A DNA stretch of 35,757 nt from Planctomycetaceae bacterium (GTDB lineage Bacteria; Planctomycetota; Planctomycetia; Planctomycetales; Planctomycetaceae). The DNA is taken from the NCBI GenBank assembly GCA_002724415.1, contig PBOU01000209.1, forward strand, positions 1 to 35,757, given 5' to 3'. The notes beneath the pieces are model-generated. The model searched no databases. It was not told the origin of the DNA and saw only the letters and a program-made list of their open reading frames with translations. Below, one piece after another: positions 19,751 to 33,478 of this stretch. Each line of letters starts with the position of its first letter. Within the stretch, counting starts at the first letter, position 1. The translations under genes and the position numbers were made by a program.

Positions 19751-21172
19751 ATGTTCGTCCAACCACTCACCCGCCGCATGGCCCTGGGTCGCTTGGGTGA
19801 CGGTTTCGCCGGGTTGGCCATCGGGTCGTTGATGACCTCGACCACCTCGGCCGATTCCCCCAGAACTTCACTCAGCCAGAGATCGCCCCGTCACCGGGCG
19901 CCCGCTCGTGCGGTGATCCAGTTGTTCATGCACGGCGGCCCCAGTCATGTCGACCTGCTGGATCCCAAGCCGATGCTCAGCCGTTATCACGGCACCACAC
20001 CGCCGGCCGAGGTCGACGATGACGAGGACAGGACCAAGTACCTGCTGGGCAGCCCGTTCTCATTTCGGAGATATGGGGAAAGCGGCCTGGAGTTTTCCGA
20101 GGTGATGTCGGGAGTAGCGACTCACGCCGACGACATCGCCGTGGTCCGGTCCATGTTCACCGAACACCGGAACCACGAGCAGGCCATCTGGATGGCCAAC
20201 ACGGGCCTGATCCGGCCCGGACGACCCAACATCGGCAGTTGGGCTGCCTACGGTTTGGGTTCAGAAACCGACGATCTCCCGGCCTACATCGCACTGCCGG
20301 ATCCCGTCGGACTGCCCGTCGACGGGGTCCGCAACTGGTCCAGTGGCTGGCTGCCGCCGGTCTACCAGGGAACCGCCTTCCGGTCACAGGGGGTCCCGGT
20401 ACTGCACCTCAAGCCTTCCCAATCGCGAACCCAGGCGGTCAGCCGTGGACGCCTCGGATTCCTCCAGGCCCTCAACCGCAAGCACCTCCGCACCCGGCCC
20501 GGCGAACTGGAACTCGAGGCCCGTATCGCCAACTTCGAACTCGCCGCCCGCATGCAGTTGTCGGCCACCGACGCATTGGACCTCTCATCCGAAACCAAGG
20601 CCACCCACGAGATGTACGGGTTGAACAACCCGACGACGAAATCCTACGGCCGCCGCTGCCTGATGGCCCGTCGGCTGATCGAGCGGGGCGTGCGATTCGT
20701 GCAGTTGTTCATGAAGGGACAACCCTGGGACACACACACCGGCAACACCAATGGTCTCAGGAGCGTCTGCGGACAAACCGATGGGCCAATCGGTGCCCTG
20801 CTAACGGACCTGAAACGACGGGGACTCTTCGACTCAACCCTGGTCCAGTGGGGAGGAGAGTTCGGCCGGACCCCGGGAGCCGAGTTGCGAGACAACAACA
20901 CCACCAAGGGAAACGAGGGCCGCGACCATCATCCGTATGGATTCAGTGTCTGGTTGGCCGGTGGCGGAATTCGCGGCGGACAGGCGTACGGCGCAACCGA
21001 TGATTTCGGCTACCGCTCCATCGAAAACCGCACTCAAACCGCCGACCTGCACGCCACGATCCTGCACCAACTCGGCCTCGATCATGAACAGTTGACCTAC
21101 ACCCACAACGGACGGGACGAGCGATTGACCGATGTTTACCAGGCCCGTGTCATCTCCGAATTGATTGGATGA
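19751..21172 (+). CDS. DUF1501 family protein, PSCyt-paired subtype
   Basis: A 473-residue DUF1501 protein. The leader MFVQPLTRRMALGRLGDGFA has an Arg pair (R8-R9) before a hydrophobic stretch, so Tat export is likely. After it comes the segment MHGGPSHVDLLDPKP. GEFGRTP is at 369-375 and the metal-site motif reads GRDHHPYGF from 390, a variant shared only with the minus-strand gene at 25950. Both these genes directly neighbour a DUF1549/DUF1553 gene and share a C-terminus of the form LHATILHQLGLDHE..TY..NGRDERLTD. This supports a distinct subtype that works with PSCyt proteins. The start lies 26 bp after the cytochrome gene and the stop 7 bp before the next start. Confidence 0.94.
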   Translation: MFVQPLTRRMALGRLGDGFAGLAIGSLMTSTTSADSPRTSLSQRSPRHRAPARAVIQLFMHGGPSHVDLLDPKPMLSRYHGTTPPAEVDDDEDRTKYLLGSPFSFRRYGESGLEFSEVMSGVATHADDIAVVRSMFTEHRNHEQAIWMANTGLIRPGRPNIGSWAAYGLGSETDDLPAYIALPDPVGLPVDGVRNWSSGWLPPVYQGTAFRSQGVPVLHLKPSQSRTQAVSRGRLGFLQALNRKHLRTRPGELELEARIANFELAARMQLSATDALDLSSETKATHEMYGLNNPTTKSYGRRCLMARRLIERGVRFVQLFMKGQPWDTHTGNTNGLRSVCGQTDGPIGALLTDLKRRGLFDSTLVQWGGEFGRTPGAELRDNNTTKGNEGRDHHPYGFSVWLAGGGIRGGQAYGATDDFGYRSIENRTQTADLHATILHQLGLDHEQLTYTHNGRDERLTDVYQARVISELIG

Positions 21173-21179
21173 CTCCACG

Positions 21180-22568
21180 ATGCTGAGCCTGCTGGACCAC
21201 GGACAGACACTCTGTGACGGCATCACCCGTCGCGAGTGGATGCGAATCGGTGGAATCGGCCTGGGTGGCCTGACGATGCCTCGCCTGGCAGCCGCCCGGG
21301 CCGCCGCGACGACTTCGATCGCACCCACCGCCAAACGAGTGATCCTGTTCGGGTTGACCGGCGGTGCTCCTCAACACGAAACCTGGGACCCCAAGCCCAA
21401 TGCGCCGGCCAATATTCGAGGCGAATTCGGTGCCATTTCCTCGTCGTTGACAGGTCTTCCTGTCGGAGAACTGATGCCACGCACGGCCAGGTGGGCCAAC
21501 CGGCTGGCGGTGCTGCGGGCGGTTGTCACGGGCGACAACTCCCACTCCTCCAGCGGCTACCAGATGCTCACCGGCGTCCCGCACCAGCCGCTGAACCGTG
21601 AAAGTGCATTGCCCAAGCCGCCCAACAACTGGCCCTGCGTCGGCGCCCTGGTCCGATCCCTGAAGCAGGAAGCCGGACAACTTCCCGCGGCAATCACACT
21701 GCCCGAACACATCTGGAACGACGGCAACTTCCCCTGGCCCGGACAGGACGCCGGCTTTCTCGGCCGTCGCCACGATCCGTGGCTCATCCACTGCCAGCCC
21801 CAGGACAACACCTTCAACGTCCCGGGACTGACAATGGAATCCGACGTCGCGGGGCTGAGGTTGAACCGTCGACGCCGACTGCTCGAACAGTTCGATTCCA
21901 CCCGCTCACACCTCGATCGTGCCCCGGCGGTCAGTTCCTACCAACTCCAGGCCAGGCAGGCGCTCGACCTGCTCACCCGCGGACAGGCGGGCACGGCATT
22001 CGATCTTGGAGAAGAATCTGACGCGACCCGGGATCGTTATGGACGCAGCCGCTTCGCCCAGAGCGTGTTGCTGGCGCGGCGACTGATCGAACGCAACGTG
22101 TCACTGGTCCAACTCAACTGGACCCGGATCAAGGACAAGCCCAACCAGGGCGGGTGGGACACCCACTCCTTGCACTGCAAGTCCCTGAGATCATTCCTGA
22201 TGCCCATGATGGACCAGGCCTTCACCGCATTGCTCGAGGACCTCGAACAACGGGGCCTTCTGGACGACACGCTGATCGTGTGGCAGGGAGAATTCGGACA
22301 CACACCCAAAATCAATAAGAACGCGGGACGGGACCACTGGGGGAACTGTTTCTCGGTTGCGATGGCTGGAGGTGGCATACGTGGTGGAGTCGTCCACGGA
22401 TCCAGTGACCGGCATGCCGCGTTTCCCGTCGAGGGTGTCGTCCGACCCCGTGACATCATTTCCACGATGTTCCACTGCCTGGGCTACGGGTCAGAAACCG
22501 TTGTCCATGACCCACTGGACCGCCCGATCCCCATCAGCCGGGGACGTGTCATCCACGAAATCCTCTAG
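21180..22568 (+). CDS. DUF1501 family protein, Tat-exported
   Basis: A 462-residue DUF1501 protein, third gene of the cytochrome-DUF1549 operon, starting 7 bp after the previous stop. The twin-Arg motif is ITRREWMRIGGIGLGGL. A TTG 15 nt upstream of the ATG is in frame but unnecessary. The segment LTGGAPQHETWDPKP and the GRDHW motif (383-387) are intact. In the usually invariant GEFGRTP motif (370-376) the Arg is replaced by His (GEFGHTP). It belongs to the GRDHW subtype and ends in PIPISRGRVIHEIL. Having one protein of each subtype in a single operon suggests that they have separate jobs. Substrate unknown. Confidence 0.93.
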   Translation: MLSLLDHGQTLCDGITRREWMRIGGIGLGGLTMPRLAAARAAATTSIAPTAKRVILFGLTGGAPQHETWDPKPNAPANIRGEFGAISSSLTGLPVGELMPRTARWANRLAVLRAVVTGDNSHSSSGYQMLTGVPHQPLNRESALPKPPNNWPCVGALVRSLKQEAGQLPAAITLPEHIWNDGNFPWPGQDAGFLGRRHDPWLIHCQPQDNTFNVPGLTMESDVAGLRLNRRRRLLEQFDSTRSHLDRAPAVSSYQLQARQALDLLTRGQAGTAFDLGEESDATRDRYGRSRFAQSVLLARRLIERNVSLVQLNWTRIKDKPNQGGWDTHSLHCKSLRSFLMPMMDQAFTALLEDLEQRGLLDDTLIVWQGEFGHTPKINKNAGRDHWGNCFSVAMAGGGIRGGVVHGSSDRHAAFPVEGVVRPRDIISTMFHCLGYGSETVVHDPLDRPIPISRGRVIHEIL

Positions 22569-22652
22569 GACAACCCCCAGTTTTTTTTATTTGAAACCCA
22601 CAGTTGCCTTCAAAACTTGTCCGAACTTGCTAGCCTCGAGAGATAGCAGCCG

Positions 22653-22670
22653 CCGGGAGTCCCGGGTTTT
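22653..22670 (+). terminator. weak hairpin with short T-run after the DUF1501 operon
   Basis: CCGGG (22653-22657) pairs with CCCGG (22661-22665) around AGT and is followed by G and TTTT (22667-22670). It lies 85 bp after the operon stop. A T8 run at 22581-22588 closer to the stop has no clear hairpin. The rest of the 236-bp gap shows only a TAGACT -10-like hexamer at 22740-22745. Confidence 0.25.
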
Positions 22671-22804
22671 CCGGTATATTTCTTTCCGGGCCGGGAATCG
22701 AAAAAGGGGCTGCGAGGGGTTTTTCTCAACAGAACTCGTTAGACTGTTTTTACACAACTTTCGGTCGTGGTTCGCCACGCCCTTCTGATGCAAGGAATGC
22801 AATC

Positions 22805-23035
22805 ATCGCAAGAAATCGGAACACATTTGCCAAACGCCAACGTGAGATGGAAAAGAAGGCGAAAGCCGAAGCCAAAAGACAACGTCGGATAAGAAGAAAG
22901 CAGGGACTCGAGGATCCTGCGTCATCCGACGGTGACCCGGCCGACCTCGAGGCCAACGTGAATGAAATGGATGACTTTGACGACGACGATGACGATGGGG
23001 GCTTTTCCCTGGACTCTGGTCGTCTTCCACACTGA
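22805..23035 (+). CDS. small highly charged protein, probable AUC start
   Basis: A 76-residue protein with a strongly basic N-half, ARNRNTFAKRQREMEKK followed by a run rich in Lys, Arg and Ala, and an acidic C-half with a D6 run. The first ATG in this frame is at 22847. However, the frame is open upstream, and the added residues ARNRNTFAKRQRE look like the conserved beginning of a family of small basic bacterial proteins, as I remember it. AAGGA (22792-22796) lies 8 nt before an ATC codon at 22805, an ideal ribosome-binding distance, so a rare AUC start is proposed. The ATG at 22797 is in another frame. An RNA- or ribosome-associated role is a guess from the charge and the adjacent cold shock gene. 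Confidence 0.62.
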   Translation: MARNRNTFAKRQREMEKKAKAEAKRQRRIRRKQGLEDPASSDGDPADLEANVNEMDDFDDDDDDGGFSLDSGRLPH

Positions 23036-23078
23036 AATCGAGAGCAACAACGCAGGCCATCCCCGGTTCGTGAAGCGT

Positions 23079-23107
23079 TCACCAGTTGGGGGTGACCAAC
23101 TTTTTTT
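23079..23107 (+). terminator. attenuator-like hairpin pair in the cold shock gene leader
   Basis: AGTTGG (23084-23089) pairs with CCAACT (23096-23101) around GGGTGA and is followed by a run of six T (23102-23107), forming an intrinsic terminator. A competing hairpin pairs TCACC (23079-23083) with GGTGA (23091-23095) and encloses the first terminator arm in its loop, so the two cannot form together. Only 21 nt separate the T-run from the csp start codon, which leaves no room for a separate promoter. The element is therefore probably inside the csp transcript. Confidence 0.6.
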
Positions 23108-23128
23108 CTAGAGAATTGGACGAGACTG

Positions 23129-23326
23129 ATGGCCGAAGGCACGATCAAGAGACTGACTGACAAGGGTTTTGGATTTATCGAGGACGGCTCTGGCACCGAT
23201 GTGTTCTTTCACATGTCGGCAGTTGAGGGAATCCAGTACGATGACCTGCAGGAAGGTCAACAGGTTACCTACAACGTGGGCACCGGTCCCAAGGGACCGC
23301 GCGCCGAGAACGTTCGGGTCAACTAA
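23129..23326 (+). CDS. cold shock domain protein (CspA family)
   Basis: A 65-residue single cold shock domain that binds single-stranded RNA and DNA and melts secondary structure in mRNA. RNP1 (KGFGFI, 12-17) and RNP2 (DVFFH, 24-28) are both intact, and the length is standard for the family. The N-terminus MAEGTIKRLTDKG lacks the usual Trp of the GxVKWF motif, which is common in divergent family members. The ATG is preceded by a purine-rich GGACGAGA stretch. An attenuator-like hairpin lies just upstream, and the small charged protein gene comes before it. The gene converges with the oxidoreductase gene, whose stop is 52 bp away. Confidence 0.95.
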   Translation: MAEGTIKRLTDKGFGFIEDGSGTDVFFHMSAVEGIQYDDLQEGQQVTYNVGTGPKGPRAENVRVN

Positions 23327-23378
23327 AGCCAACTCGGCTTGACCCGATCTGGTTGATTCCGCGGCGAGCCCCGCCCTG

Positions 23379-24371
23379 TCACTGTGACGGACGGACCGCC
23401 GCCGTCAGCCGCTCCATCCACTCTTGAACCTGGATGGCGTCCTTGAATGTGGCCCCAACCGGGACCACTTGGTGCCCCTGCGCGACGCGGCAGAAGCAGC
23501 GCAGTTCCTCGGCCAGCATTCCAGTAGCGCCCTCCGGGTCGGTTCGGATTTCCAGGGCCATCGGCCACTCGGACCGGTCTCCCCAGACCTCCACGGGGCG
23601 CGGATTGGCCTCGGCCCGGGCTGCCCAACCGGCGCCGAAAACCTCCATCCGATCAATCCCGCGGGGCGGCATGCCCTCGGGAGTCAGGTACGAAGCGGAG
23701 AACGAGGCCAGGGGACCGTTCTCCCACTGCACCTGTGCCAGTGCCAGATCGATCGCCCCATCTGGCGTCCGGTGATACTGGCACGACACTGCGACCGGAT
23801 CGGCCCGATCCACCAGGACCTGCACCATGTACAGGTCGTGCACCATCGCGGCATGCAGAGGGTTTTCCCCGGCAAAATCCTGAACGATTGATGCCGGACG
23901 ATGACGGACACAATCGATATGAGCAATCGGTCCCCTCGCGACCACCTCATCGCGGATCTGTCGAAATTCGCTGTTGAACAGCAGGATGTGCCCGATCATC
24001 AGGTTGGCCGAATCGGCTGCCACCAGCGACTCCAACGATCTCGCCTCGGCCAGGTCTTCCGAAATCGGCTTCTCCAACAACACGGTCTTGCCCGCCTCCA
24101 GCAACTGCCGGGTGATCGGCACGTGCGCCACGGTGGTCGCCGCGACAACCCACGCATCCGCCGTGCACTCCTGCAACGCCACATCCAGGTCGGTCCACCC
24201 CGGAACCCCCGGCAACTCCTGCTGCAACGACTCGACGCTTTCCGTCCGCCGGGCCACCAATCCCACCAGTTCGGCCTCGGCCAGCCCGGCAAGCGTTAGT
24301 GCGTGCAACCGCCCAAAACGCCCCAGGCCGATCACAGCGACCCGTACCGGTGCTCCCTCTGATAACGCCAT
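23379..24371 (-). CDS. Gfo/Idh/MocA family NAD(P)-dependent oxidoreductase
   Basis: A 330-residue cytoplasmic dehydrogenase of the glucose-fructose oxidoreductase / inositol dehydrogenase family. The Rossmann dinucleotide motif is VIGLGRFGRLH (GxGxxG at 15-20). The family EKP motif is at 100-102, and H178-D179 in the AAMVHDLYM segment match the catalytic His region. The C-terminal half is the usual substrate-binding beta-sheet domain. The ATG at 24371 follows GAGG; an in-frame TTG at 24413 is not needed. No export signal is present, unlike many planctomycete relatives. It is divergent from the DUF1501 gene at 24568. The sugar or cyclitol substrate cannot be predicted; with GntP and SMP-30 in the window, sugar oxidation is plausible. 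Confidence 0.93.
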   Translation of the reverse strand: MALSEGAPVRVAVIGLGRFGRLHALTLAGLAEAELVGLVARRTESVESLQQELPGVPGWTDLDVALQECTADAWVVAATTVAHVPITRQLLEAGKTVLLEKPISEDLAEARSLESLVAADSANLMIGHILLFNSEFRQIRDEVVARGPIAHIDCVRHRPASIVQDFAGENPLHAAMVHDLYMVQVLVDRADPVAVSCQYHRTPDGAIDLALAQVQWENGPLASFSASYLTPEGMPPRGIDRMEVFGAGWAARAEANPRPVEVWGDRSEWPMALEIRTDPEGATGMLAEELRCFCRVAQGHQVVPVGATFKDAIQVQEWMERLTAAVRPSQ

Positions 24372-24481
24372 CGTGTCCGCCTCGATCCAGTTTCGTTTGT
24401 TTGTTCGGTGCAAAACCGATCGAGATTCTTACTCCTCAGCGCCCCACAAGCAACGTCAGCTTTTCGCGGTCACGTTCCACC

Positions 24482-24510
24482 TTTACCACACCCGATGGAA
24501 GGCGTAGACT
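24482..24510 (+). promoter_or_regulatory. candidate sigma-70-type promoter for the DUF1501 gene at 24568
   Basis: TTTACC (24482-24487, 4 of 6 matches to TTGACA) is followed after 17 bp by TAGACT (24505-24510, 4 of 6 to TATAAT), about 58 bp upstream of the start codon in the 196-bp divergent gap. No clear promoter was found for the divergent oxidoreductase gene. Confidence 0.35.
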
Positions 24511-24567
24511 CGGAGTCCCGAAAGCCATGTTTTATTCGACTGTGCCAGGGACGGGCACGCACCGCTC

Positions 24568-25947
24568 ATGCCATACACACGACGACAATTCCTCGACGGC
24601 ACACTCTCGGCCGGCACTGCTGGACTGGCATTGCCCGAATTGTTGCGATTGCGTGCTGCGTCGGCCGATTCGTCTCACAAGATCGACAGCGACACCGCGG
24701 TCATCCAGATCTGGTTGGGCGGAGGCCACAGCCAGTTCGAAACTTTTGACCCCAAGCCCGAGGCTCCCGTCGAATACCGGGGCCCCTACGGGGTGATCCC
24801 GACCAGGCACGCCGGCATCTCGTTTTGCGAGAAACTGCCGCGGACGGCACAGGTCATCGACCAGGCCGCCCTGATCCGTTCGATCACTCACACCACCAAC
24901 GGACATTACGTCGCCGCTCACTGGCTGTCGACCGGGTACCCGGGCAACATCACGCCTCCAACACATCCCTCTTCCGGGTCGATCGTGAGCCATTTCCGTG
25001 GCGCCAACGATCCCGGCCTGCCGCCCTACGTTCTGCTGTCCCACGAACAGACCCGGAACCCGGAAATCGGCGCCGTCATGGGAACCGGCTACCTGGGCGT
25101 TCAGCACGCTCCCTTCACAGTGATGCAGGACCCGTACCGAGACGAGTTCAAGCGACAGAAGGTGGTGGAGGCGACATCGAACCTGACTCTCGCCGACAAC
25201 CTGACAATCGATCGGGTCGATGACCGTCGCAGCCTGCTGCAGCAGCTCGATCGGTTTTCCCGCAACGCCGACGCCAGTCGCCAGATGGAAGGCATCGACC
25301 GGTTCACCGTCGCCGCACTCGACATGGTCACCAGCGGCCGCGCCCGGGCAGCCTTCGACCTGACACGCGAACCCGAACACGTCCGCCAGATGTACGGCCG
25401 GCACCGGTGGGGCCAGATGGCCCTGTTGGCCCGACGACTGGTCGAGTCGGGCGTGACCTTTGTCACCATCAACACCGCACCCGATTCATTGTGCTGGGAC
25501 TGGCATCTCAACATCGTCGACGACAAGCGGCCCGCCGACGGGTCCAATGGCCCCTCCCGCGGAATGGAACACCATGGCCCTCCCCTGGACCAGATGGTCA
25601 GTGCCCTGCTGACTGATCTCTACCAGCGCGGCCTGGACAAGAAAGTGATGCTTGTCGTCTGGGGAGAGTTCGGACGGACACCACGAGTGAACAAGACCGG
25701 TGGTCGGGATCACTGGGGAGCTCTGATGAGCATCCTGATGGCCGGCGGTGGCCTCAAGGTCGGCCAGGTGATCGGTGCATCCAACTCCAAGGGCGAGATG
25801 CCTTCCGAGCGCCCGATTCATCCCACCGATGTGCTGGCGACGATGTACCGTCACCTGGGAATTGACCTCAACGGCGAGACGATCAACAACGCCGGGCGGC
25901 CAATCCCGCTGCTGCCCAGCGGTCGGCCGATCGCCGAACTGATCTGA
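24568..25947 (+). CDS. DUF1501 family protein, Tat-exported
   Basis: A 459-residue DUF1501 protein with a short twin-Arg leader (MPYTRRQFLDGTLSAGTAGL, R5-R6). LGGGHSQFETFDPKPEAP, GEFGRTP (366-372) and GRDHW (379-383) are all intact, so this paralog has the consensus set of motifs. It contains a YGRHRWGQMALLARRLVESG helix shared with the other members. Its tail, ending in GRPIAELI, resembles that of the fragment at the left edge of the window. No good ribosome-binding site is seen, and a promoter-like pair lies in the gap upstream. It converges with the DUF1501 gene on the minus strand with only 2 bp between the stop codons, both inside a 10-bp palindrome. Confidence 0.94.
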   Translation: MPYTRRQFLDGTLSAGTAGLALPELLRLRAASADSSHKIDSDTAVIQIWLGGGHSQFETFDPKPEAPVEYRGPYGVIPTRHAGISFCEKLPRTAQVIDQAALIRSITHTTNGHYVAAHWLSTGYPGNITPPTHPSSGSIVSHFRGANDPGLPPYVLLSHEQTRNPEIGAVMGTGYLGVQHAPFTVMQDPYRDEFKRQKVVEATSNLTLADNLTIDRVDDRRSLLQQLDRFSRNADASRQMEGIDRFTVAALDMVTSGRARAAFDLTREPEHVRQMYGRHRWGQMALLARRLVESGVTFVTINTAPDSLCWDWHLNIVDDKRPADGSNGPSRGMEHHGPPLDQMVSALLTDLYQRGLDKKVMLVVWGEFGRTPRVNKTGGRDHWGALMSILMAGGGLKVGQVIGASNSKGEMPSERPIHPTDVLATMYRHLGIDLNGETINNAGRPIPLLPSGRPIAELI

Positions 25948-25949
25948 CG

Positions 25950-27443
25950 TCAGGCGACGATCTCAGAAATCACTCGCCCGGCCACATCGGTCAAACGGAA
26001 ATCCCGACCGTTGTAACCGTAGGTCAGCAATTCATGATCCAGCCCCAGCAGGTGCAGGATCGTGGCGTGCAGGTCGTTGACGTGCACCCGGTTTTCAGCC
26101 GCTCGGAACCCCACCTCGTCGGAGGCACCGTAAGAGATGCCGCCCCGGATCCCGCCACCGGCCATCCACGCCGTCAGGCAATGCGGATTGTGATCACGTC
26201 CCGGCTTCTTCCCAGTCTGGGCAACCGGCAACCGGCCGAATTCCCCACACCACACCACCAGGGTTTCGTCGAGCAGCCCACGCTGGGCCAGGTCCTCCAG
26301 CAACCCCGCCACGGGCCGATCGGTTTCACCGGCGAACTGTGAATGGTTCCCCTGGATGTCGCTGTGCCCATCCCAGCTTCTCTGGTTCTCGTTCCCGCCG
26401 GAATACAGTTGCACGAATCGGACTCCCCGCTCGACCAACCGCCGGGCCACCAGGCACTGGCGACCAAAATGATCACACCGCTTGTCACCAATGCCGTAGA
26501 GTTGCTGGACCTGCCGCGATTCGGCCTCAATCGCCAACGCCTCCGGTGCCGCCGACTGCATCCGGTAAGCCAGTTCAAAGCTCTGGATCCGCGACGCCAG
26601 TTCACCGGCGGCCTGTGACAAACCGCCCGGGCTGTTCAATTGCCGGAGCAGGTTCAACTGGTTGCGTTGCGAGAGATCGGTCATCTTTCCGGGCCGTTTC
26701 AGATTGTCGATCGGCGGCCCCTGCGGTCGCAGGTGCGTTCCCTGAAAAACTCCCGGAAGAAACCCGGCACTCCAGTTGGCCGCATGCCCCTTGGGCAGCC
26801 CCCTGCCCTTCGGATCGCTCATCACGACAAACGCCGGCAGATCCTGGCTGCTGCTGCCCAACCCGTAAGTGACCCACGATCCGACACAAGGCAGTCCCAT
26901 CCGCGGCAGGCCACAGTTCATCATGAACAACGCCGGAGAATGGTTGTTTGACTCGGTGAAAACCGAGTGCACGAACGCCATCTTGTCGGCATGGCCGCCC
27001 AGGTGAGGAAAAATCGAGGAAATCGGTTTGCCACATTCGCCCCGACGTCGAAATGCAAACGGCGATGCCATCAGGTTGCCCACTGAATTGCGGAAGAACC
27101 CGGTGGTGTTCTCGAACTTGGGATCAAACGTCTTGATTGACATCCCGTTGCGACGCACCAGTCCCGGTTTGAAATCCCACGTATCAACCTGGCTGGGCCC
27201 CCCGTTGACGAAAATCCAGATCACCTGCCGGGCACGGCCGGAGAAGTGGGTCTGCTGAGGTGCCAGTGGAGCCAGGCCCCGTTGTCCCAGCCCGGAATCC
27301 GCTCGAACAGTCGGACCCAGCAACCCCTCCGAATGCAACAAACCCGACAGCCCCACCACGCCAAAACCGGCCCCGGCTCGAGCCAGGATATGACGGCGCG
27401 ACACCAGGGCCCGGCCCGGGCCGAGATCGGCAATTTCTCTCAT
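25950..27443 (-). CDS. DUF1501 family protein, PSCyt-paired subtype
   Basis: A 497-residue DUF1501 protein. The ATG at 27443 follows GAGGA; an in-frame GTG at 27479 would overlap the spacer after the upstream gene. The twin-Arg leader is SRRHILARAGAGFGVVGLSG (R16-R17). The segment NGGPSQVDTWDFKPG is conserved. GEFGRTP reads GEFGRLP (400-406), a Thr to Leu change, and the metal-site motif reads GRDHNPHCL, the subtype shared with 19751-21172. The tail, LHATILHLLGLDHELLTYGYNGRDFRLTDV (quoted in two parts: LHATILHLLGL, then DHELLTYGYNGRDF), is also subtype-specific. It starts 41 bp after the DUF1549/DUF1553 gene on the same strand, forming the standard two-gene unit. Confidence 0.94.
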   Translation of the reverse strand: MREIADLGPGRALVSRRHILARAGAGFGVVGLSGLLHSEGLLGPTVRADSGLGQRGLAPLAPQQTHFSGRARQVIWIFVNGGPSQVDTWDFKPGLVRRNGMSIKTFDPKFENTTGFFRNSVGNLMASPFAFRRRGECGKPISSIFPHLGGHADKMAFVHSVFTESNNHSPALFMMNCGLPRMGLPCVGSWVTYGLGSSSQDLPAFVVMSDPKGRGLPKGHAANWSAGFLPGVFQGTHLRPQGPPIDNLKRPGKMTDLSQRNQLNLLRQLNSPGGLSQAAGELASRIQSFELAYRMQSAAPEALAIEAESRQVQQLYGIGDKRCDHFGRQCLVARRLVERGVRFVQLYSGGNENQRSWDGHSDIQGNHSQFAGETDRPVAGLLEDLAQRGLLDETLVVWCGEFGRLPVAQTGKKPGRDHNPHCLTAWMAGGGIRGGISYGASDEVGFRAAENRVHVNDLHATILHLLGLDHELLTYGYNGRDFRLTDVAGRVISEIVA

Positions 27444-27484
27444 CGCGAGGTCCTCTTCAGAGACTGCCTCAAAAGGCACATATC

Positions 27485-29398
27485 TCAGTCAACGTAAATA
27501 AACTCGTTCATCCCCAGCAGGGCCTGGCACAGGTCGACCCGGGCGGTCTGAACCCCATCGGTCCGACCGGCCAGACGGTAGATCTGTTCCTGGCGGTCCA
27601 GGAACAGTGCCGTCGCAACCCGTTCGTCGGATCGGGGAGGACGCCCCAGGGCCAATTCCCATCCACGAACCACCGCCTGTTCCGGATCACCGGGCAGCCG
27701 GTCCGCCAGCGACCGCGCGTAGCCCCGCCCCGCCGGACTGTTCATGAATGCCAGCGCCTGGGCCGCGGTGGTCGTGTTGGATCGCCGCCCGATACTCACC
27801 AGGTGTTCGGGCCAATCAAACAGCATCATCGTCGGGACCAGGCGACTCCGCTTGACCTTCAAGTAGACGCTGCGACGCGGAGAGCTTTCATCGAGTGTAC
27901 CCGGACCGTACATCCCCGAATCGAGTCGCCCCGACACATCCAGCAACGCATCCCGGATCGCCTCCCCCTCGAGACGCCTGCGGGGCCTGTGCCACCACAA
28001 CCGATTTTCCAGATCAGCAGTCATTCGCCGGGCACCGGTCCGTCCCTGCTGGCAATAGACGCTGCTGGTCAACAACAGGCGATGAATCGGTTTCAATCGC
28101 CATCCCCCCCGGATCAGTTGCTCGGCCAGCCAATCGAGCAGTTTTGGATGAGTGGGCTCCTCACCCTGGGTTCCAAAGTCGTTGGGTGTGGCGACCAGTC
28201 CGCGGCCGAAGTGGTGGTGCCAGAGACGGTTGACGATCACGCGAGCCACCAGGTTCCCTGCTCCATCACGGGTGTCAGTCATCCAGCGAGCCAGTGACGC
28301 CCGGCGGAAGGACGTTCGCGTCCACCCCTCGGGAGGCTTCACCTGCCACCGCGACAACTGGCTGCCAGGCCGGATCAGCACCTGGAGATATCCTGTCTCG
28401 GCAGCACCGTGTTTCTGGTGAACGTCGCCACGAGACAGAAAAAAGACCTGCTTGTAGAAATGCGGAAAACCGCGACTATCGGCGTGATGCTTGAGCTTGG
28501 GTAGCCCCTCGCTGGTGACCAGCACCTTCTGATCCACGTCGTGCCACGGTGCCCGCGTGGTCACTTCTCCACGGATTGTCGTCGTGAATGCCGACAGCAG
28601 GCGGTAGTAGTCCTGGGATGGGATCGGGTCGTACTTGTGATCGTGACACCGCGCACAACCAACCGAGAGACCCAGGAAGGCCACTCCCGTGGTGGTCACC
28701 ATGTCGTCGAGTTCATCGTAGCGGGACGATTCGAATTCGGTTTCGGTCAACTGGCTGGGAAACACACCGGCCCCCAGGAACCCGGTTGCCATCAACGCCA
28801 GTGGATCTTTCGGAGCCAACTCGTCTCCTGCCAGTTGCCAGGACAGAAACTGATCGAAGGGCATGTCGCTGTTGAAAGCGGCAATAAGAAAATCGCGATA
28901 ATGGAAAGCTGTCGGCCGATCCGCATCGTGTTCAAAACCACCACTCTCGGCGAACCTCGCCACGTCCATCCAGTGCCGGGCCCACCGTTGTCCGTAATGG
29001 GGCGAGGCCAACAACCGATCGACCAGGTCGCTCCATGCCGACGGCGACTCGTCCGACCGGAATCGGGCAATCACCTCCGGCGAGGGTGGCAAGCCCAGCA
29101 ACGAAAAATGGGCCCGCCGTGCCAGCACCCGCCGGGACGCCCTGCCCGAAGGAGACAACCTGTTCTCCTCCAGTCGCGACAGGATGAACCGATCGATCGG
29201 ATTGCGACACCATCGTGATTGTTCCACCACGGGCAACTGCCCCGACTGCAAGGACTGGAACGACCAATGGTCGCGTTCGTCGACCGACACACGTGTCCGG
29301 GGAAAGGAGGATCCGGTGGGTTCATCGGCCAGCAATCTCACCGTCCACGGTGCCCCGGCAACGAACATCAGCAATGCGATCGGCCATCGAATCTTCAC
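27485..29398 (-). CDS. DUF1549/DUF1553 protein without heme domain
   Basis: A 637-residue exported protein. The GTG at 29398 opens a plausible signal peptide (VKIRWPIALLMFVAGAPWTV read from the start codon); the frame extends upstream to 29518 but adds a polar stretch. DUF1549 occupies about 60-310 and includes the CARCHDHKYDPI motif. DUF1553 spans about 370-620 with VARVIVNRLWHHHFG and the TTAAQALAFMNSP segment. Unlike the paralog at 17064-19724 it lacks the N-terminal PSCyt1 domain and its CxxCH heme site, and the linker between the two domains is shorter. It is the first gene of a two-gene unit with the DUF1501 gene at 25950 and is divergent from the GntP gene across a 146-bp gap. Confidence 0.93.
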   Translation of the reverse strand: MKIRWPIALLMFVAGAPWTVRLLADEPTGSSFPRTRVSVDERDHWSFQSLQSGQLPVVEQSRWCRNPIDRFILSRLEENRLSPSGRASRRVLARRAHFSLLGLPPSPEVIARFRSDESPSAWSDLVDRLLASPHYGQRWARHWMDVARFAESGGFEHDADRPTAFHYRDFLIAAFNSDMPFDQFLSWQLAGDELAPKDPLALMATGFLGAGVFPSQLTETEFESSRYDELDDMVTTTGVAFLGLSVGCARCHDHKYDPIPSQDYYRLLSAFTTTIRGEVTTRAPWHDVDQKVLVTSEGLPKLKHHADSRGFPHFYKQVFFLSRGDVHQKHGAAETGYLQVLIRPGSQLSRWQVKPPEGWTRTSFRRASLARWMTDTRDGAGNLVARVIVNRLWHHHFGRGLVATPNDFGTQGEEPTHPKLLDWLAEQLIRGGWRLKPIHRLLLTSSVYCQQGRTGARRMTADLENRLWWHRPRRRLEGEAIRDALLDVSGRLDSGMYGPGTLDESSPRRSVYLKVKRSRLVPTMMLFDWPEHLVSIGRRSNTTTAAQALAFMNSPAGRGYARSLADRLPGDPEQAVVRGWELALGRPPRSDERVATALFLDRQEQIYRLAGRTDGVQTARVDLCQALLGMNEFIYVD

Positions 29399-29544
29399 GT
29401 GTGCACCATTCCGGTGAAGCCAGTCATTGGAAGCGACCACTATGATACAGGATTCTCGCCATCGGAGACCGCTCGCACCAATCGGTTCGTCTGGTAATAT
29501 CTCGACCAAGAGACTCACACCGCCATCCTGTGGAACAGTTCTTC

Positions 29545-31200
29545 ATGGCCAGCACAACGACAATTCTTGGCATCATTCTTGTTGGCATTGTCACGGTGAT
29601 CGGCGGGATTCTTTTCCTGAGACTCCATGCCTTCGTGGCGTTGGTCCTCGGCGCCATTTTTGTCGGCCTGCTCACCCCTGCTTCCTCCGTCGAACGGTGG
29701 TCCCTGGAGAAAGCTGCCGTTGCGTTCCAACCCGCCGCCCCTGGCGAGGCTCCCCAACGAGTCGACTTCAACGGACCGATCAACCAGGACACGCCACTCC
29801 AGGTCGTTCGTTTCTCGACTCAGACCGGGCATCACGAACCCATCGGAACACTCGCGGTCGAAGAATCCGGCAAGTCGGCCGTGTTTCATCCCGAGGCCAT
29901 CGGAACAACCATCCGGGCCGACGACCTGGTCGTCCGGTCCTCGGCAGTTGCCACCGCCAACCGGTTGTCCGGCCAGACAGTCGGTGAACGGGTGGCAACA
30001 GGTTTCGGATCAACATGTGCCAAGATCGGCATCCTGATTGCCCTGGCCTCGATCGTCGGCAAGTGCCTGCTCGACAGTGGTGCCGCCGACCGAATCGTCC
30101 GCAGCGCGCTGGGAGTACTCGGGCAGCGCGGAGCCGGCGGGGCGTTCCTGGGCAGCGGTTTCCTGCTGGGCATCCCCGTCTTCTTCGACACGGTCTTTTA
30201 CCTGATGATCCCGCTGGGAAAGGCAATGCGGATGCGGACCGGCGGGAATTATCTGCTGTACGTCCTGTGCATCGTCGCCGGGGCCTCGATGGCCCATTCG
30301 CTGGTGCCCCCCACCCCCGGCCCGCTGTTCGTGGCGGGTGAACTGGGCGTCGATCTCGGCGCCATGATCCTGGCCGGATCGATCGTGGGCACCTTCACTG
30401 CCGGATTCGGCTACCTGTACGCTTCGGTCCTGAACCGTTTTCGCGATCTGCCGCTCCGGGAGACCGCCGAGTTCTCTCTCGCTGAACTCGAGACCTTGTC
30501 ACAGAAGGACGAAAGCGAATTGCCGGGCTTGTGGGTCTCGCTGATGCCGATTGTCTTACCTGTGGTGTTGATCAGCGGCCTGACTGTGGTCAACACGTTC
30601 CAACTGCAACTGCCCAAAACGGTCCACTCGACACTGGAAACGCTGGGCAACAAGAACATCGCCCTGCTGCTGTCTGCCGGAATCGCCCTGGCCACGGTGG
30701 CCTGGCAGAAGCGGACCAGCCTGAAAGAACTGGGCGGCTCGATCGAACAGTCGTTGGCCAGCGGCGGCGTGATCATCCTGATCACCGCCGGTGGCGGAGC
30801 CTTTGGCCAGGTGTTGCAACAAACCGGAGTGGCCGGCCTGATCAAGGATCTGCCCGATGCCTCCCCGGCACTGATCGTCACGCTGGCTTTTTTGATCACC
30901 GCCGCGGTCCGCACAGCCCAGGGATCGGGCACCGTCGCCATGATCACCGCCGTCGGGATCCTCTCGGGACTGGCCACTTCCGGCAACCTCCCGTTCCACC
31001 CCGTCTACCTGGCATTGGCGATCGGCTGCGGGTCGAAACCAATCGCCTGGATGAATGACAGCGGTTTTTGGGTGATTGCCAAGATGAGTGGAATGACTGA
31101 AAGTGAAGCCCTGAAGTACGTCACGCCGATGTCCTGCATGATGGGGCTGGTGGGACTAATCGTGGTCGTGATCGGTGTCTCGGTGTTTCCGATGGCCTGA
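29545..31200 (+). CDS. GntP-family gluconate/sugar-acid permease with large insert
   Basis: A 551-residue inner-membrane transporter of the GntP family (PF02447), which takes up gluconate and related sugar acids with protons. The ATG at 29545 follows a weak TGGAA; an in-frame GTG at 29530 is possible. Two N-terminal membrane spans (about 5-43) are followed by about 95 polar, beta-like residues (50-143) that ordinary GntP proteins of 440-450 residues lack. The family core then resumes with the GFGSTCAKIGILIALASIVG segment, SGAADRIV, and the conserved FFDTVFYLMIPL and HSLVPPTPGPLF motifs. The C-terminal half has GGGAFGQVLQQTGV, RTAQGSGTVAMIT and a WMNDSGFW motif. Its stop lies 43 bp before the next DUF1501 start, so the two may be co-transcribed. 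Confidence 0.92.
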   Translation: MASTTTILGIILVGIVTVIGGILFLRLHAFVALVLGAIFVGLLTPASSVERWSLEKAAVAFQPAAPGEAPQRVDFNGPINQDTPLQVVRFSTQTGHHEPIGTLAVEESGKSAVFHPEAIGTTIRADDLVVRSSAVATANRLSGQTVGERVATGFGSTCAKIGILIALASIVGKCLLDSGAADRIVRSALGVLGQRGAGGAFLGSGFLLGIPVFFDTVFYLMIPLGKAMRMRTGGNYLLYVLCIVAGASMAHSLVPPTPGPLFVAGELGVDLGAMILAGSIVGTFTAGFGYLYASVLNRFRDLPLRETAEFSLAELETLSQKDESELPGLWVSLMPIVLPVVLISGLTVVNTFQLQLPKTVHSTLETLGNKNIALLLSAGIALATVAWQKRTSLKELGGSIEQSLASGGVIILITAGGGAFGQVLQQTGVAGLIKDLPDASPALIVTLAFLITAAVRTAQGSGTVAMITAVGILSGLATSGNLPFHPVYLALAIGCGSKPIAWMNDSGFWVIAKMSGMTESEALKYVTPMSCMMGLVGLIVVVIGVSVFPMA

Positions 31201-31209
31201 AACTACGTG

Positions 31210-31215
31210 TATACT
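31210..31215 (+). promoter_or_regulatory. candidate -10 element upstream of the DUF1501 gene at 31244
   Basis: TATACT (5 of 6 matches to TATAAT) lies 29 nt before the start codon, just after the GntP stop. The best -35 (TTTCCG, 31186-31191, 18-bp spacer) is poor, so a separate promoter is only possible. Confidence 0.25.
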
Positions 31216-31243
31216 GTCGTTTCCACTGGAGGCGAGATCGACA

Positions 31244-32692
31244 ATGCTCAACCTGATGCCCATGCACGTCCCGCACCGCGGCGGTTTCAGTCGACGGGAT
31301 GCATTGCGTCTGGGCACCGTCGGCGGCCTGGGAATGACATTGCCCGAGATCCTCTCGGCGGCCGACACATCCTCCCAGGCGATCGAGGCCACGCGGCATT
31401 CGGCGACGGCCAAACGGTCCATCTACATCTTCCTCTGTGGTGGACCCTCGCAGTTGGACATGTGGGATCCCAAGCCTGATGCGCCAGTCAAGATCCGGGG
31501 CCAGTTTGGTGATATCGCGACCGCGGTCCCCGGCACACGGTTCGGTGGACTGCTGCCCAAGGTCGCCCCGCACGCCGACAAGTTCGCCATCATCCGATCG
31601 ATGAATGTCGACACCCAGTCACACGATACAGGTATCTACCGCACGCTCATGGCCAGTCGGCTGGCCACCATCCGGAACAAGGCCTACCCGGTCTCACCCG
31701 ATGACCATCCCGCCATCGGCGCCATCCTCCACAAGTTGCTGGGGCCCTCGGGAAGCTTGCCACCGTGGGTCGTGGTCCCGAGGCACTTCACCACCGGCAC
31801 ACGTTTCTACAAGGGCCAACGGGCCGGTTTCCTCGGCCCACGATTCGAACCATTGAGCCTGGGCACCGAAAAAACTGGGTCCCTGGAAAGAACCGAATTC
31901 ACCCTGAAGAACCTGGAACTGCACGGCGAGCAGATGACAGTGGAACGTCTGGATGCCCGGCGATCGTTGCTCGACGCAGTCGGACCACAACGGGTGGGCA
32001 ACGACGGTGCGGTGCTGGCCTACCAGCAGCAGTACAACAAGGCGATCGAGATGCTGACGTCAAAGGCATTTCGTGAGGCTTTCGATGTCACCAACGAATC
32101 GATGACGTTGCGTGAACAGTATGGGATGAATGAGTACGGCCAGAGCTTCCTCCTGGCGCGTCGACTGATCGAGCGGGATGTGCGAATGGTCAACGTCTTC
32201 TGGACCTACTACGGGACCGACGGCTGCCAGTTCAATCTCTGGGACAACCACGGAGCCGAGAAGAAGACCAAGGTCTGTGGCGGCACCAACCGTGGCAAGG
32301 AGATGCTCAGCAACAAGAACTGCCTGCCGTCATTCGACGCGGCCTTCTCGACATTGCTGTCGGATCTCGATCAACGGGGACTGTTGGAAGACACCCTGGT
32401 GACGGTGATCGGGGAATTCGGACGCACACCCACAATCAACAAGTTCACCGGCCGGGACCACTGGGGCGCGTGCTACTCGGCCGTGCTGGCCGGAGGCGGT
32501 GTCCAGGGAGGACGGATCTATGGCGCCAGCGATCCACTGGCCGCCTATGTCCACGACTTGCCGGTGAGTGTCTACGATTTCCAGGCCACGATCCTGCACG
32601 CCTTTGGACTGAAACCCGAAGCAGCAGTCCCCGACGGCAGCGGACGACCGGTACGAGTCTCCGACGGCCGCCCGGTCATCGAGTTGTTCTAG
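31244..32692 (+). CDS. DUF1501 family protein, Tat-exported
   Basis: A 482-residue DUF1501 protein. The ATG at 31244 is preceded by GGAGG (31228-31232). The leader has a twin-Arg motif (FSRRDALRLGTVGGLGMTL) and a hydrophobic Gly/Leu stretch. LCGGPSQLDMWDPKPDAP, GEFGRTP (390-396) and GRDHW (403-407) are all consensus. A Cys-containing insertion before the last third (segments KVCGGTNRG and NKNCLPSF) is absent from most local paralogs. The tail, ending in GRPVIELF, places it in the GRDHW subtype. It follows the GntP gene by 43 bp and precedes the glutathione peroxidase gene by 153 bp. Substrate unknown. Confidence 0.94.
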   Translation: MLNLMPMHVPHRGGFSRRDALRLGTVGGLGMTLPEILSAADTSSQAIEATRHSATAKRSIYIFLCGGPSQLDMWDPKPDAPVKIRGQFGDIATAVPGTRFGGLLPKVAPHADKFAIIRSMNVDTQSHDTGIYRTLMASRLATIRNKAYPVSPDDHPAIGAILHKLLGPSGSLPPWVVVPRHFTTGTRFYKGQRAGFLGPRFEPLSLGTEKTGSLERTEFTLKNLELHGEQMTVERLDARRSLLDAVGPQRVGNDGAVLAYQQQYNKAIEMLTSKAFREAFDVTNESMTLREQYGMNEYGQSFLLARRLIERDVRMVNVFWTYYGTDGCQFNLWDNHGAEKKTKVCGGTNRGKEMLSNKNCLPSFDAAFSTLLSDLDQRGLLEDTLVTVIGEFGRTPTINKFTGRDHWGACYSAVLAGGGVQGGRIYGASDPLAAYVHDLPVSVYDFQATILHAFGLKPEAAVPDGSGRPVRVSDGRPVIELF

Positions 32693-32845: not shown

Positions 32846-33418
32846 ATGAGACAAGTTGGACTGCTGGCCGCCGGGCTGGTGTTTTCCGGACTGATGGCAC
32901 TGCCGGGCCAATCAGCCGAACCTGCCGCCGGACTGAAATTCAAGATGAAATCGATCGACGGCAAACCGGTCGACTTCAAGAAGTACAACGGACGCGTGAT
33001 GTTGGTGGTCAACCTGGCCAGCCAGTGAGGCCTCACCCCCCAATACCTGCAGTTGCAGGCCATGCACACCAAGTACAACAAGTCGGGTCTTTCGGTTCTC
33101 GGCTTCCCCTGTAACCAGTTCGGCGGGCAAGAGCCCGGCACGAACGCCGAGATCAAGACGTTTTGCACGTCGAAGTACAAGGTCAGCTTCGACATGTTCT
33201 CCAAGGTCAACGTCAACGGCAAAGACGCCGCGCCGTTCTACAAGCACCTGACCAAGCAGGCTGCCAAGCCCAAGGGGCCCGGCAAGGTCGCGTGGAACTT
33301 CGAGAAATTTGTCATCGACCGCCAGGGCAACGTGATCGGACGTTTTGGTCCCCGGACCAAGCCGGACGACCCGGCCGTGCTCAAGCTGATCGAGGGCGCG
33401 TTGGCCAAGAAGAAGTGA
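32846..33418 (+). CDS. exported selenocysteine-containing glutathione peroxidase (TGA = Sec61)
   Basis: A 190-residue GPx-family peroxidase that would reduce hydrogen or lipid peroxides. Residues 1-24 form a Sec signal peptide (MRQVGLLAAGLVFSGLMAL onward), so it should act outside the cytoplasm. The frame runs from ATG 32846 to TGA 33416-33418 and is interrupted only by an in-frame TGA at 33026-33028 (codon 61). The residues around it read NLASQ-U-GLTPQYLQL, which is exactly the GPx active site, where the family has Cys or Sec. The rest of the catalytic tetrad follows in the same frame: Q91 in FPCNQFGGQEPG, then W150 and N151 in WNFEKF. C107 sits where thioredoxin-dependent GPx enzymes have a resolving Cys. 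A hairpin after the TGA fits a bacterial SECIS. A nonsense mutation at this exact codon in an otherwise intact gene is the less likely alternative. Confidence 0.93.
33029..33061 (+). promoter_or_regulatory. candidate bacterial SECIS element
   Basis: Directly downstream of the Sec TGA, CCTGC (33046-33050) pairs with GCAGG (33055-33059) around an AGTT loop that starts 23 nt after the TGA. The second loop base is G. Distance, stem length and an early G in the loop agree with the known loose consensus for bacterial SECIS elements, which SelB binds. GGCCT (33029-33033) and AGGCC (33057-33061) could form an alternative, longer-range stem. Confidence 0.6.
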
Positions 33419-33441: not shown

Positions 33442-33478
33442 GACCCCGCGGTGAAGACTGTTCACCGCGGGGTCCTTT
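33442..33478 (+). terminator. intrinsic terminator after the glutathione peroxidase gene
   Basis: A perfect 14-bp stem, GACCCCGCGGTGAA (33442-33455) with TTCACCGCGGGGTC (33461-33474), around a 5-nt loop, followed by CTTT. The stem is very stable but the T-run is short. It starts 23 nt after the stop codon and separates this gene from the dipeptidase gene. Confidence 0.82.

Follow-up and report, generated by a model that had tools for sequence, protein, structure and literature searches.

A glutathione peroxidase gene of a marine planctomycete with an in-frame UGA codon that is most likely read as selenocysteine

The glutathione peroxidases (GPx) of Schistosoma mansoni and the vertebrate GPX4 carry selenocysteine (Sec) at the active site. 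Among bacteria, a selenoprotein GPx has been reported from Treponema denticola (PMC1794560), and Sec-GPx sequences are known from marine bacteria of the Sargasso Sea (5 sequences; PMC1088965) and from the GOS data (40 sequences; PMC2398784). The planctomycete Sec-users P1 and P2 have selA, selB, and selD together with predicted selenoproteins, of which the main text of the report names formate dehydrogenase and formylmethanofuran dehydrogenase, and the term ‘glutathione peroxidase’ is absent from that main text (PMC4807772). Bacterial Sec-GPx and planctomycete Sec use are therefore both already in the literature; what is new here is a well-supported further Sec-GPx.

The protein described below shares with the T. 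denticola, Sargasso Sea, and GOS sequences, to which we liken it by description, its family (COG0386/PF00255), Sec at the peroxidatic position, a bacterial SECIS downstream of the UGA, and a marine setting, but here it is tied to a named lineage, the Planctomycetota, with sel genes. As a planctomycete with selA, selB, selD, and predicted selenoproteins, the host resembles P1 and P2 as the main text portrays them (PMC4807772). The fold and the Sec active site are shared with the S. mansoni enzyme and vertebrate GPX4 (2v1m, 6elw); the SECIS of eukaryotic GPX4, however, lies in the 3′ UTR, whereas the planctomycete element lies inside the coding sequence. Cys-type planctomycete GPx (e.g., L085, 63% identity) have the same family, the same Gln/Trp/Asn tetrad residues, and the same Cys at 107, but carry TGC or TGT at codon 61 and lack both Leu68 and the hairpin. 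Bacterial Sec-GPx thereby acquires an identified host lineage, together with decoding genes, a conserved SECIS, and closely related Cys forms. Natural pairs can thus be used to test the Cys-to-Sec switch, the limits that the SECIS sets on the protein at Leu68, and the part played by the resolving Cys. We are highly confident that the gene encodes a functional, probably exported Sec-GPx in which UGA61 is decoded as Sec with the downstream hairpin, and in which recycling through Sec61 and Cys107 is most likely.

The stretch of DNA analyzed (hereafter, the window; 35,757 nucleotides) is the whole of contig C204 of genome G000, an assembly of 6.26 Mb in 228 contigs that is 94% complete. As a sequence-only reading had pointed out, a single frame runs from 32846 to 33418 and is broken internally only by TGA at 33026-33028 (codon 61); its terminal stop is also TGA (33416-33418). 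With codon 61 read as Sec, translation gives an uninterrupted protein of 190 residues, M...VNLASQ-U61-GLTPQYLQLQ...WNFEKF...KKK. The same reading expected annotation to leave a headless GPx, and under the standard code the list of open reading frames indeed gives only a TTG-started remnant of 121 residues at this locus (33053-33418); a standard gene caller would truncate the gene. The features of the locus are as follows:

32846-33418, + strand: coding sequence of the Sec-containing glutathione peroxidase, 190 residues, Sec at 61, terminal TGA (translation, PF00255, model, fold)
32846-32917, + strand: probable signal peptide, residues 1-24 (cleavage after QSA judged by eye; low-confidence N-terminus in the model)
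33026-33028, + strand: UGA codon 61, the peroxidatic residue, read as selenocysteine (frame, conservation, alignment)
33046-33059, + strand: bacterial SECIS hairpin CCUGC-AGUU-GCAGG (conservation and the model in PMC13188914)
33128-33130, + strand: Gln95, the tetrad glutamine, in FGGQEPG (alignment)
33164-33166, + strand: Cys107, the resolving-cysteine position (Cys in 86/86 homologues of the tree set)
33293-33298, + strand: Trp150-Asn151, tetrad residues (invariant alignment columns)
33442-33474, + strand: terminator-like hairpin of 14 bp with a short T run, just 3′ of the gene

The read-through protein scores 147.8 bits against the PF00255 profile (curated cut-off 27) and matches PDB glutathione peroxidases with E-values down to 7.5e-44. 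Its AlphaFold model (pLDDT 90.7, from a 44-row alignment) has the thioredoxin-like GPx fold, with S. mansoni GPx as the best Foldseek match (2v1m, E 4e-22) and TM-scores by target length of 0.93 for 2v1m and 0.85 for 6elw. The hydrophobic N-terminus, which ends QSA-EP, makes export likely. The terminator-like hairpin is weak by count alone, as shuffled sequences average 1.3 such sites. Upstream, the window holds four DUF1501 genes and one DUF1549/DUF1553 gene within about 11 kb (21165-32692), and a GntP-type permease (29530-31200) within the same interval.

Alignment with 43 homologues places codon 61, between NLASQ and GLTPQYLQL, at the peroxidatic position, where the sequence-only reading had put it, and yields a complete catalytic tetrad of U61, Q95, W150, and N151. 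Trp150 and Asn151 are the residues first proposed, but the glutamine is not Gln91 as had been suggested: Q91 (in NQF) varies to E or D among homologues, and Q95 is nearly invariant. This agrees with the tetrad of GPX4, which we take to be numbered U46, Q81, W136, and N137. Cys107 follows the Gln motif in helix 100-111 of the model and is Cys in every row of the tree set, in Sec and Cys forms alike. Hydroperoxides would be reduced at Sec61, activated by Gln95, Trp150, and Asn151; a Sec61-Cys107 selenenylsulfide would then form and be reduced by a thioredoxin-like protein. Cys-type thioredoxin-dependent GPx use a resolving Cys, and we prefer this recycling route because Cys107 is kept in every homologue, as in those enzymes; the Cys-type homologues of related planctomycetes would be expected to be regenerated in a like manner.

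The alternative that survives best is a GPX4-like enzyme that works on its one selenium, takes its electrons from glutathione or another low-molecular thiol, and does not need Cys107. Sec is able to cycle without a resolving Cys, and the structures that match the model best are GPX4-type enzymes of S. mansoni and human, whose catalysis relies on Sec and thiols. We consider this possible but clearly the less probable route, given that none of the 86 homologues, Sec or Cys form, lacks Cys107 and that the nearest kin are planctomycete Cys forms.

Decoding of UGA61 by SelB and Sec-tRNA would be aided by the stem-loop CCUGCAGUUGCAGG at 33046-33059, which has a 5-bp stem and the loop AGUU, with G at loop position 2 followed by U. 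The hairpin begins 17 nt after the UGA and its loop 22 nt after it. Its dimensions fall within the bacterial SECIS model, which allows a loop of 3-9 nt, a stem of 4-16 bp, G in the first two loop positions, and a loop 16-37 nt after the UGA (PMC13188914). All eight TGA-type GPx genes found carry the 14-nt hairpin unchanged and at equal distance, down to 43% protein identity, and no other invariant stretch within 330 nt is longer than 8 nt across these genes; shuffling of codon columns reached a 14-nt invariant run in 64 of 5000 trials, any place counted. The element also constrains the protein sequence: Leu68, which the hairpin dictates, occurs in 8/8 Sec rows of the alignment and in none of the Cys rows. 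The case for a SECIS rests on this conservation, because the hairpin is not more stable than shuffled sequence (folding energy, z ~ +0.4) and some Cys homologues have chance hairpins of equal stability. A search of Rfam gave no match for the hairpin, and its stem, being invariant across the GPx genes, shows no covariation there. An identical AGUU loop follows the Sec UGA of a Prx-like gene elsewhere in the genome, and the stem there differs by a U-A to C-G exchange between G000 and the counterparts in a congener (G002) and another family member (G011).

A profile search of the genome recovered, all over their curated cut-offs, selA (478.6 bits) and the adjoining selB (299.7 bits) on contig C161 and selD (342.9 bits) on contig C59. 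The selD gene itself has an in-frame TGA at the active site (SCAG-U-AGK), a position we take to be that of catalytic Cys17 of E. coli SelD, followed by a 7-bp SECIS-like hairpin whose loop, GGUCG, starts 32 nt after the UGA. No tRNA-Sec in the G000 assembly passes the Rfam cut-off; the eight best candidate places hold only Ser, Leu, and Gly tRNAs according to ARAGORN, and a weak DNA match to selC on contig C72 is not a tRNA. The expectation that the organism would have a Sec-decoding gene set was borne out for selA, selB, and selD; selC is present in the relatives G002 and G011. In these two a tRNA-Sec with anticodon TCA is clear and lies, in each, beside the same VWA-domain gene cluster. The first part of this region has its counterpart on G000 contig C202, but that contig stops at 30938, inside the VWA-domain gene cluster; by G002 coordinates, selC would come about 4.4 kb further on. 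Because the syntenic location is thus beyond C202, an assembly gap best explains the missing tRNA-Sec, which accounts for its absence and does not prove its presence. In a further congener (G001), selC itself is cut by the end of contig C353. A selA above the cut-off is present in each of the five other genomes that have a TGA-type GPx, and UGA61 is most likely readable as Sec by this marine bacterium.

In G001, G002, and G011, contig ends fall close to selC or within it. G002 has a tyrosine-recombinase-like frame adjoining selC (L119:8383-9366), and a similar one is found in G011 (L120:52-630); mobile elements may use selC as an integration site in this lineage.

The TGA at codon 61 is kept in G002 (91% identity), in G011 (81%), and in the metagenome-assembled genomes behind L030 and L031 (72-76%), as well as in a second paralogue group of G001, G002, and G011 (44-57%). 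In G002 and G011 the gene has the neighbors that it has in the window, a DUF1501 gene on one side and an M19 peptidase gene on the other. Across the tree set of 86 homologues, codon 61 is Cys in all 78 rows other than the eight Sec rows, which form one side of one tree branch with moderate support (SH-aLRT 83). A UGA that is retained in other genomes, at a site where homologues have Cys, is the pattern of a bacterial selenoprotein, and together with selA, selB, selD, and the conserved SECIS-type hairpin it upholds the initial proposal of a selenoprotein in a Sec-decoding organism. This Sec-GPx appears to derive from a Cys-type planctomycete GPx by one Cys-to-Sec change. In the genome search, four rows marked as having one TGA (G136, G121, G115, and G109) carry Cys at codon 61 and hence are not Sec forms, and no further Sec-GPx was seen among the loci read in a wider phylum sample of 392 genomes.

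Could the TGA be a nonsense mutation, or a sequencing or assembly error, in an ordinary Cys-GPx? It is one base from either Cys codon (TGC or TGT), single metagenome assemblies contain errors, and the G000 assembly is without a tRNA-Sec. This explanation is in practice refuted by the recurrence of the same codon in five separate assemblies and a diverged paralogue, by the presence of sel genes and a conserved hairpin, and by selection on the codons that follow: dN/dS after the TGA is 0.05 against L028 and 0.095 against L029, strong purifying selection that marks the downstream part as a working part of the protein.

The genome probably carries at least five other selenoproteins, besides the Sec-GPx and SelD, as judged from motifs with TGA at the catalytic Cys:

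L172, contig C74: PrxQ-like, TGG-U-TKQC, with a clear SECIS-like hairpin after the TGA
L184, contig C181: TlpA-like, FWGDW-U-PPC, with a clear SECIS-like hairpin after the TGA
L199, contig C104: Prx-like, HLT-U-LPC, with a clear SECIS-like hairpin after the TGA
L200, contig C104: FSFLR-U-GGC, with a clear SECIS-like hairpin after the TGA
L201, contig C38: FFEEG-U-PKC, without a clear SECIS-like hairpin

A genome-wide reassignment of UGA (e.g., to Trp), or its read-through by a near-cognate tRNA, would also account for a UGA inside a frame. We regard either as highly improbable, since in related redox proteins each in-frame TGA that we examined coincides with a catalytic Cys, and since Sec genes and a SECIS are present; genome-wide reassignment is rejected by the 12 of 17 inspected open reading frames of the window, the Sec-GPx included, that end in TGA, although several of the 17 are without a family assignment. 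It is equally hard to credit that translation yields just the portion downstream of the TGA, starting from the TTG at 33053: the 121-residue frame exists, but its product would be missing the active-site motif as well as the initial strands of the fold, and the codons before the TGA are under purifying selection too (dN/dS 0.31 and 0.24).

Two further Sec/Cys differences were seen among relatives. A Prx-like gene of G011 (L205, contig C19) has two TGA codons in one motif, HLT-U-LP-U (UxxU), where two related genomes have UxxC. In an AhpC-like peroxiredoxin, the codon of the peroxidatic residue is TGA in G002 (L171, contig C175; TFI-U-PTE), and the residue is Cys in G000 (L202, contig C158; TFVCPTE), which, if the two are orthologous, is a Sec/Cys difference inside one genus.

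The least expected part of the findings is the second Sec-GPx paralogue (L112:983-1459 in G001, L113:1034-1510 in G002, and L114:1018-1527 in G011; no match in G000, the window's own genome). It shares the active-site TGA and the SECIS hairpin with the first group, but Phe (DQFGSF or DQFGDF) stands in place of the tetrad Gln. An even chance seems fair for a single-lineage history in which a thioredoxin-type Cys-GPx changed to Sec once while keeping its resolving Cys, and the resulting exported Sec-Cys peroxidase then gave rise to the Gln-to-Phe paralogue of G001, G002, and G011. If this is true, the paralogue would imply a changed chemistry or substrate.
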